Source: a virus
Virus record (IMG/VR): IMGVR_UViG_3300005613_000113
Location: 1-46,924 of that record
DNA length: 46,924 nucleotides
Reading direction: 5' to 3' (one strand)
Below, one piece after another: positions 41,614 through 44,278 of the stretch. The position numbers and the translations under genes are program-made. The notes beneath the pieces are model-generated. The model was not told the origin of the DNA and searched no databases. It was given only the letters and a program-made list of their open reading frames with translations. Within the stretch, counting starts at the first letter, position 1. Every line of letters begins with the position of its first letter.

Positions 41614-41658
41614 TTATCTCTCATCAGTTATGTTTTAAACATAATACGCCGGAGATAA
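41614..41658 (-). ncRNA. Hammerhead-like RNA relic (no GAAA/stem III)
   Basis: On the minus strand: UUAUCUC, CGGCGUA, an 8-bp hairpin (UUAUGUUU/AAACAUAA), CUGAUGA, GAGAUAA. The first and last pieces pair perfectly (7 bp), as stem II; the hairpin equals stem I; GUA fits a cleavage triplet. The GAAA and stem III present in the other two elements are replaced by CGGC. It is probably a decayed or incomplete hammerhead and should not cut in the standard way. Confidence 0.55.
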
Positions 41659-41725
41659 GTGAGCTCGGCAGGATATGATTATATCCAGCTACGCTCACAC
41701 TCATGACAGCAGCTTTGTGCCTATT

Positions 41726-42874: not shown

Positions 42875-42903
42875 GCTTCTCACCTCCTTTTAGAATAGAT
42901 TTA

Positions 42904-42942
42904 TAAAGAGATAATAATTATTTAACTTTTACTATCTCTTTA
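42904..42942 (-). other. Perfect 10-bp hairpin between ribozyme and gene
   Basis: TAAAGAGATA pairs fully with TATCTCTTTA around 19 AT-rich bases. It would fold at or near the 5' region of the RNA left after ribozyme cleavage and could protect it or tune translation of the gene at 42874. Confidence 0.65.
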
Positions 42943-42965
42943 CAGATAATTTGCTGAATTCTTAT

Positions 42966-43034
42966 GCCTCATCAGAGCCAGTATCTCTGGCTGACATCTC
43001 CGATTAACTTTCGTTGTATCAGAGATGTTTCGGC
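42966..43034 (-). ncRNA. Hammerhead ribozyme (type II), copy 2
   Basis: Minus strand, 5' to 3': stem II strand GCC; core GAAA; stem III CAUCUC/GAGAUG with a 21-base loop; cleavage triplet GUC; stem I AGCCAG/CUGGCU with AGAUA loop; core CUGAUGA; stem II strand GGC. Every conserved core base of the hammerhead fits, with C15.2-G16.2 and A15.1-U16.1 pairs. Stem II is only 3 bp. Predicted cut is between 42993 and 42992. It lies between the Api92-like gene and the zinc-finger gene. Confidence 0.88.
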
Positions 43035-43967: not shown

Positions 43968-44141
43968 TTAAAAGTCTGCTGTGTGGACAATTTCTTTTCC
44001 GTCTTTTTCACATAAATAGATGCTTATCTGATAACTCTTTTTTACTTTTAACTGCTTTGCTAACTTTAACTGCGCTGCATACGTTGTTTCGGCATAGACT
44101 TCATACTTTTTGCCCTTATATAATCCGATATAGCCGTTCAT
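43968..44141 (-). CDS. Small conserved phage/plasmid-type protein, 57 aa
   Basis: ATG 44141 after AAAGGAGGTGAGAG. Sequence NGYIGLYKGKKYEVYAETTY, AAQLKLAKQLKVKKSYQISI, YLCEKDGKEIVHTADF. I recognise this pattern from small proteins found in phages and mobile elements, function unknown. It is the first gene after hammerhead copy 1; its mRNA 5' end would be set by ribozyme cleavage. Confidence 0.65.
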   Translation of the reverse strand: MNGYIGLYKGKKYEVYAETTYAAQLKLAKQLKVKKSYQISIYLCEKDGKEIVHTADF

Positions 44142-44168: not shown

Positions 44169-44227
44169 ATAGCTCGTCAGTATGTTTTCAAAACACAGAC
44201 GGCGGAGATAATCCGCCGTTTCGCTAT
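44169..44227 (-). ncRNA. Hammerhead ribozyme (type II), copy 1
   Basis: Minus strand, 5' to 3': stem II strand AUAGC; core GAAA; stem III CGGCGGA/UCCGCCG with a UUAUC loop; cleavage triplet GUC; stem I UGUGUUUU/AAAACAUA; core CUGACGA; stem II strand GCUAU. Stem II is a perfect 5 bp. All invariant core bases fit the hammerhead (position 7 is variable). Predicted cut is between 44198 and 44197. The structure starts at the stop codon of a short ORF and ends 28 bases before the next ATG. Confidence 0.93.
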
Positions 44228-44278
44228 TTAGTCTTTATAACTTTCCGGAAATAACCAATTTAACATCTCTTCGTCCAT
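44228..44278 (-). CDS. Possible 16-residue peptide
   Basis: AAAGGAG stands before ATG; sequence MDEEMLNWLFPESYKD. Its stop touches stem II of the hammerhead. It is too short to be sure of; the good ribosome site is the only support. Confidence 0.35.
   Translation of the reverse strand: MDEEMLNWLFPESYKD

Follow-up and report, generated by a model that had tools for sequence, protein, structure and literature searches.

Natural type II hammerhead ribozymes, together with clusters of hammerheads flanking prophage genes, were reported in 2011 by Perreault et al. (PMC3088659), and the cutting of long phage transcripts into smaller messages was proposed in the same work (PMC3088659). When hammerheads of consensus type were assayed in vitro, 14 of 18 cleaved and 4 of 18 were inactive, and a tandem hammerhead array of A. 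tumefaciens was cleaved in E. coli (PMC3088659). What such ribozymes do in bacteria and phages has been regarded as unsettled since 2011 (PMC3088659), and a 2017 review still treats the function of prokaryotic hammerheads as an open question (PMC6155905).

Here we describe two type II hammerheads (copy 1 and copy 2) in one phage genome. The window analysed is the whole 46,924-base virus record from IMG/VR. In comparison with the Rfam family RF02276, Hammerhead_II (PMC3088659), the order of parts is the same, running from one stem II strand through GAAA, the stem III hairpin, UH, the stem I hairpin and CUGANGA to the other stem II strand. The fixed core bases are shared as well, and so is the intergenic placement in phage or prophage operons with several motifs per genome. 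Copy 1 differs in its stem I hairpin, which has 17 nt (21-23 nt in the other main form), in having no identifiable pseudoknot between loop I and the 3' tail, and in a score under the gathering cut-off. The prophage clusters of Clostridium scindens, Azorhizobium caulinodans and Agrobacterium tumefaciens (PMC3088659) likewise lie on one strand and flank small, inconstant genes. Those clusters were tested and proposed to cut long transcripts. The motifs described here are read from the sequence of a phage that has not been cultivated, and genes for DUF932, DUF1281-like and ParB-like proteins lie close to them. HHphage of the haloviruses HF1 and HF2 (PMC3088659) resembles copy 1 in standing directly ahead of a start codon within a phage operon; there an RNA 5' end was mapped near the cut, but the core is a variant one and the host virus is a halophilic archaeal virus, while the core found here is consensus. 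The non-circularly permuted hammerheads SGC, CSG and GCS (PMC10085705) are built from the same three blocks, S, G and C. Both copies have the order GSC, which rules out these three orders for them.

Copies 1 and 2 add to a known kind; the new part is a comparative pattern of hairpins across the hammerhead types. Of the hairpin that we find beside type III ribozymes we found no account in PMC3088659 or in the literature searched, subscription papers and preprints excepted, and we regard it as only provisionally new.

Sequence and predicted fold of copy 1

On the minus strand (44227..44169) the DNA letters of copy 1 are ATAGC-GAA-ACGGCGGA-TTATC-TCCGCCGT-C-TGTGTTTTGAAAACATA-CTGACGA-GCTAT, or as RNA AUAGC GAA ACGGCGGA UUAUC UCCGCCGU C UGUGUUUUGAAAACAUA CUGACGA GCUAU. 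The blocks follow each other in the type II order G-S-C, so that stems I and III are closed and stem II is open, and copy 2 is arranged likewise. With CUGACGA, GAAA and GUC (the latter providing the UH cleavage dinucleotide) the set of fixed core elements is complete. Stem I can be drawn either as 7 bp with a triloop or as 6 bp with a pentaloop. Folding to minimum free energy yields the three-way junction of a hammerhead itself (-20.2 kcal/mol, z -3.6), and the stem III hairpin that would remain at the 3' end after the cut has -14.2 kcal/mol.

Table 1. Positions of the hammerheads and neighbouring features in the window
Feature	Position	Strand	Basis or detail
Type II hammerhead ribozyme, copy 1	44169..44227	minus	core, stems, fold, covariance scores
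Copy 1 stem II strands	44227-44223 + 44173-44169	minus	5 bp
Copy 1 GAA	44222-44220	minus	
Copy 1 stem III	44219-44212 / 44206-44199	minus	8 bp with the A15.1-U16.1 pair
Copy 1 GUC	44200-44198; C17 = 44198	minus	
Copy 1 predicted cleavage site	44197..44198, after C17 (44198), before 44197	minus	hammerhead consensus (NUH)
Copy 1 stem I hairpin	44197-44181	minus	17 nt
Copy 1 CUGACGA	44180-44174	minus	
Type II hammerhead, copy 2	42966..43034	minus	grammar scan, RF02276 33.2 bits, R1 36.8 bits
Degenerate hammerhead-like element	41614..41658	minus	UUAUCUC-CGGCGUA-UUAUGUUUAAAACAUAA-CUGAUGA-GAGAUAA
Conserved 16-codon mini-ORF MDEEMLNWLFPESYKD	44228..44278	minus	own AAGGAG site
Ribosome site AAGGAGGTG before 57-aa ORF	44154-44146	minus	
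57-aa ORF downstream of copy 1	43968..44141	minus	ATG at 44141

A preliminary description had presented copy 1 as a complete type II hammerhead that follows the consensus at every fixed base and whose outer pieces pair as stem II. Core, fold and the score of model R1 (see below) agree with this, and the outer pieces AUAGC and GCUAU do form 5 bp. Its placement of the cut at GUC, between 44198 and 44197, is what the consensus predicts. Its stem lengths need partial correction: stem III of 7 bp stands (8 bp when A15.1-U16.1 is counted), while the 8 bp given for stem I shrink to 7 bp at most.

A contact between stems I and II was sought as loop-tail pairing. The best one has 3 bp, no better than in shuffled sequences, and a loop I-3' tail pseudoknot was set aside for copy 1. 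Should such a contact be missing, cleavage may be slow. Judged by its letters and predicted fold, copy 1 is very probably a true type II hammerhead, of a form that is compact and has no pseudoknot.

Detection by covariance models

At gathering thresholds, Rfam gave no RNA match over the whole window. RF02276 scores copy 1 with 25.3 bits (E 0.0026 in a 201-base search) and copy 2 with 33.2 bits, both under its gathering score of 37. We therefore built a covariance model of our own, R1. Its 29 training motifs are compact type II hammerheads of phages, most of which have the short stem I, and neither the window phage nor its kin contributed to them. As the grammar that picked its members demands pairing, pairing statistics of the training alignment are circular; the score of the window's own motif is not. 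With R1, copy 1 reaches 50.9 bits (E 1.8e-15 over the window) and copy 2 reaches 36.8 bits (E 7e-11, filters off), E-values being rough. The covariance search suggested in the preliminary description thus turns out differently with the two models, below the gathering score with RF02276 and strong with the independent R1.

A loose type II grammar scan of the window returned exactly two sites, copy 1 and 43034-42966. In simulated sequence of the same dinucleotide make-up, the loose criteria give an expected 0.017 matches per strand, and with stems of about the length of copy 1 there were 0 matches in 60 runs. Among the phage type II matches listed, the length of the stem I hairpin is bimodal, with 17-18 nt in 38/99 and 21-23 nt in 51/99. 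Complete motifs of the short form also fail the RF02276 cut-off, for example all five of locus L092. Since other complete phage motifs are missed as well, we regard the shortfall as a limit of the model. By core and predicted structure, copies 1 and 2 are hammerheads; they are not so as RF02276 matches. The gathering cut-off misses the short-stem-I phage form also in L038, L054, L032 and others.

Copy 2, conservation and a degenerate element

Copy 2 begins 10 nt past the stop of a DUF1281-like gene and has a stem III of 11 bp, a 17-nt stem I hairpin and a stem II of 3 bp. Downstream of it, a 65-aa cysteine-rich protein and a DUF932 protein are encoded. The latter is 84% identical to its counterpart in a group of ~64 kb contigs, and these relatives carry both copies. 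Each copy was compared as two sequences; the near contigs carry near-identical loci and so amount to one independent comparison. In copy 2, 3/19 pairs show compensatory double changes and 2/19 one-sided ones, with 0 broken. In copy 1, 17/18 pairs are identical and 1/18 has a one-sided change, with 0 broken and 0 double changes. The sole altered core base in both copies is N7, the one position that is free to vary; it is C in one phage and U in the other. Stems are kept by compensatory change in this one independent relative. Four viral scans for further kin yielded just the ~64 kb group of near-identical contigs, and genome contigs yielded none.

In copy 2, pairing is conceivable between the loop I sequence AGAUA and the tail UAUCU. 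This sequence is identical in both phages, and hence there is no covariation for the pairing. The leader that separates copy 2 from the following ribosome site (42883-42965, minus strand; 5705-5790 in the relative L006) may contain a second hairpin, whose strands would be UAAAGAGAUA...UAUCUCUUUA in the window and UGCUGAUAUA...UAUCUCAGCA in the relative, with three compensatory pairs; the relative's predicted fold differs from that of the window.

A third, degenerate element keeps stem I (a 17-nt hairpin) and CUGAUGA, without GAAA and without the 5' arm of stem III, and UUAUCUC pairs perfectly with GAGAUAA across it. It has sequence in common with the 3' half of copy 1 and scores 9.1 bits against R1. 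It is absent in the ~64 kb relatives. The element was considered as a non-circularly permuted hammerhead, for which the S and C blocks are there but a GAAA (G) block that would fit is absent nearby, and as another ribozyme, for which Rfam gave no match. Its region (41614-41725, minus strand) follows DUF932, and a long imperfect hairpin precedes the element.

Gene context of copy 1

The stop codon of the mini-ORF (44230-44228) is flush with the start of copy 1, and from the end of copy 1 to the ATG at 44141 there are 27 nt, with the AAGGAGG ribosome site inside this gap. The location precisely between a stop codon and the next ribosome site, as first described, is thus borne out. The 57-aa ORF has no Pfam or PHROG match. 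In the relative the mini-ORF reads MDDEMLAWLFPESYRD (L006 3918-3968); of the codons that differ, 5 are changed synonymously and 3 non-synonymously. In both phages it directly precedes copy 1 and has its own ribosome site. There, copy 1 and the mini-ORF are followed by a 52-aa ORF and then by a hydrolase gene. Gene order around copy 1 is shuffled (window 44830-43968, minus strand, against L006 3900-4603): the SleB-like hydrolase gene comes after copy 1 in the relative and before it in the window.

Hammerheads between phage genes

For a survey, viral contigs were scanned with patterns for each permutation and the hits filtered by a stem grammar. Its counts are of matches listed, ignoring relatedness, and gene calls are heuristic. 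We found at least 281 distinct hammerheads in at least 171 loci (type I at least 131, type II at least 99, type III at least 51). Phage hammerheads avoid long ORFs: among the matches listed, 1-5% fall within one, compared with 29-40% of random sites. Between stop codon and ribozyme the median gap is 0 nt for type I, 4.5 nt for type II and 30 nt for type III, and between ribozyme and start codon it is 28, 26 and 20.5 nt, respectively (matches listed). A stop codon lies within 12 nt of the motif start in 45/80 type II, 69/111 type I and 4/43 type III matches listed. In 14/84 of the type I matches listed, the upstream gene stops on the UGA of the core CUGANGA; such loci include L146, L150, L166, L169, L187, L213, L270 and others.

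All of the multi-hammerhead loci listed are one-stranded (59/59), and 46/59 hold a single type throughout. Up to seven hammerheads occur in one phage locus, always on one strand (type II loci L050, L068, L092, L271 and L364; type I loci L166, L177, L213 and L215), and mixed-type loci exist as well (L355, L372). Among 130 downstream proteins of the matches listed, no Pfam family appears more than twice, and a tie of hammerheads to one kind of downstream gene was rejected for this absence of a common family.

Hairpins at the cut ends

The three permutations leave different products. After cleavage at the predicted site, the upstream message of types I and II would end in the stem III hairpin, with a single base between it and the cut, whereas that of type III retains no stem III hairpin. 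The downstream message would begin with a hairpin in types II and III and without one in type I. It was considered whether type II is favoured as the sole type with hairpins at both cut ends; this was dropped as a general rule, since types I and III are found between phage genes just as readily.

The gap of 30 nt in front of type III ribozymes contains a hairpin of its own. In the 34 nt 5' of the ribozyme, the mean z of folding is -2.23 for type III, against -0.39 for type I and -0.05 for type II (matches listed), and a minimum free energy of -8 or lower occurs in 67% of type III flanks, against 14-20% for types I and II (matches listed). The 3' flanks of all three types have mean z of -0.02 to -0.37 (matches listed). 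For a fresh type III sample, the prediction that at least half would have the hairpin was recorded beforehand. It was present in 58/75, at -8 kcal/mol or lower and ending within 4 nt of the ribozyme, and 49 of these 58 strong hairpins are exactly flush with it. As a control, 27 type I motifs in the fresh-sample loci average z 0.0. Pooling gives 89/126 type III matches listed, in 38 sequence families defined by shared 9-mers, one family accounting for 39; the pooled hairpins have a median of -15.7 kcal/mol and start at a median of 7 nt past the stop codon. Flush examples are found in L266, L299, L346, L354, L355 and others.

Stem III hairpins have medians of -9.9 kcal/mol in type I and -12.8 kcal/mol in type II; stem II hairpins have -4.5 kcal/mol. 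The former are much stronger than the latter, and stronger than catalysis is known to need. Bacterial 3' exonucleases act poorly on an RNA end that combines a hairpin with a 2',3'-cyclic phosphate. As the downstream 5' hairpin is missing in type I, the feature common to the three permutations is a hairpin-capped upstream 3' end. Because this feature is common and such an end is a poor exonuclease substrate, we read these ribozymes, copy 1 included, as elements that separate cistrons, and the product for which they are selected may well be the upstream 3' end.

Discussion

A possible course of events at copy 1 is as follows. The minus-strand phage operon would be transcribed as one long RNA, in which copy 1 folds as soon as it is made. 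It would then cut behind C44198, at a point past the mini-ORF's stop codon and ahead of the ribosome site that serves the 57-aa gene, and so separate their messages. The upstream message would keep the strong, GC-rich stem III hairpin, with a 2',3'-cyclic phosphate one base further on, and the downstream message would begin with a 5'-OH at the stem I hairpin. That copy 1 cleaves, we hold with high confidence, and it is likely, somewhat less firmly, that its cut separates cistrons in infected cells. A more tentative view, slightly short of an even chance, is that copy 1 is selected mainly because it forms and protects the upstream 3' end. Cutting of a polycistronic mRNA by copy 1 is our best inference, and the same idea has been proposed for prophage hammerheads (PMC3088659).

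Another reading would take copy 1 for an intrinsic terminator or attenuator, or for an inactive relic, with a chance likeness to a hammerhead. Its stem III is indeed a GC-rich 8-bp hairpin, its RF02276 score is under the Rfam cut-off, and the degenerate third element nearby indicates that copies can decay. A U-run after stem III is absent, though, the fixed core bases are intact in both copies of both phages, and the stems of copy 2 are compensated. With the strong score of independent R1 and a chance expectation far below one, this explanation is very improbable. Gating by translation is a further reading. A ribosome at the abutting stop codon would cover the stem II strand and GAAA, so that cutting would take place on ribosome-free RNA only, and the mini-ORF would serve this gating. 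The mini-ORF stop is flush with copy 1, stop codons are similarly close to many type I and type II motifs, and some type I upstream genes stop within the catalytic core itself. Compact phage genomes yield the same spacing, however, and type III motifs, with just 4/43 close stops among the matches listed, do not follow it. We consider gating improbable.

The main purpose might instead lie downstream, in a 5'-OH, hairpin-led message that is shielded from 5'-end-dependent decay and has its ribosome site opened. The downstream product of copy 1 would start at the stem I hairpin, and the ribozyme ends 27 nt before the ATG; the halovirus hammerhead stands 13 nt before a start codon, with a mapped RNA 5' end at most 3 nt from the cut (PMC3088659). 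Such a message had been given as the outcome of copy 1 in the preliminary description. As a general purpose it is not supported: type I occupies the same position and leaves no downstream 5' hairpin (3' flank z -0.02, the level of shuffles), and the downstream genes are unrelated and share no common family. It seems unlikely to us, if less so than gating. The main rival to the upstream 3'-end reading is coaxial stacking: the extra hairpin of type III would stack on its short open stem III and steady it, and the types would share only the intergenic cut. Exactly flush positions in 49/58 strong hairpins of the replicate sample are what stacking would produce. Yet in types I and II, where the open stem is just as short, neither side is flanked by a hairpin of this kind, and their stem III hairpins are far stronger than stem II hairpins. 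Stacking is thus the least unlikely of these alternatives, and still on the unlikely side.

We suggest that the common job of phage hammerheads is to provide a clean, hairpin-capped end for the message of the preceding gene. In its full form, this upstream 3'-end reading says that phage hammerheads of all permutations, cutting shortly past a stop codon, may be protein-free makers of mRNA 3' ends, and that type III, which by itself leaves no hairpin-capped end, has repeatedly acquired a separate flush hairpin; we give it a probability of about 0.4. If it is true, shortening stem III (types I and II) or removing the extra hairpin (type III) would make the upstream mRNA shorter-lived and leave cleavage intact. 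The comparison thereby sharpens a vague idea of transcript processing into a test of an upstream 3'-end role, and the window adds two clean, naturally placed hammerheads that the curated Rfam model misses.

One more feature of type II motifs, which looks genuine in a few phages and is absent from the window, concerns the tail right after stem II. In 5/99 matches listed, this tail is the reverse complement of the core and matches its N7, being CGUCAG with C7 and CAUCAG with U7; about 0.3-0.6 such cases are expected by chance. The sites are L029 3075-3131, L051 398-450, L054 781-835, and L096 2226-2287 and 1266-1331. By pairing with the core in an alternative hairpin, such a tail might mask it.
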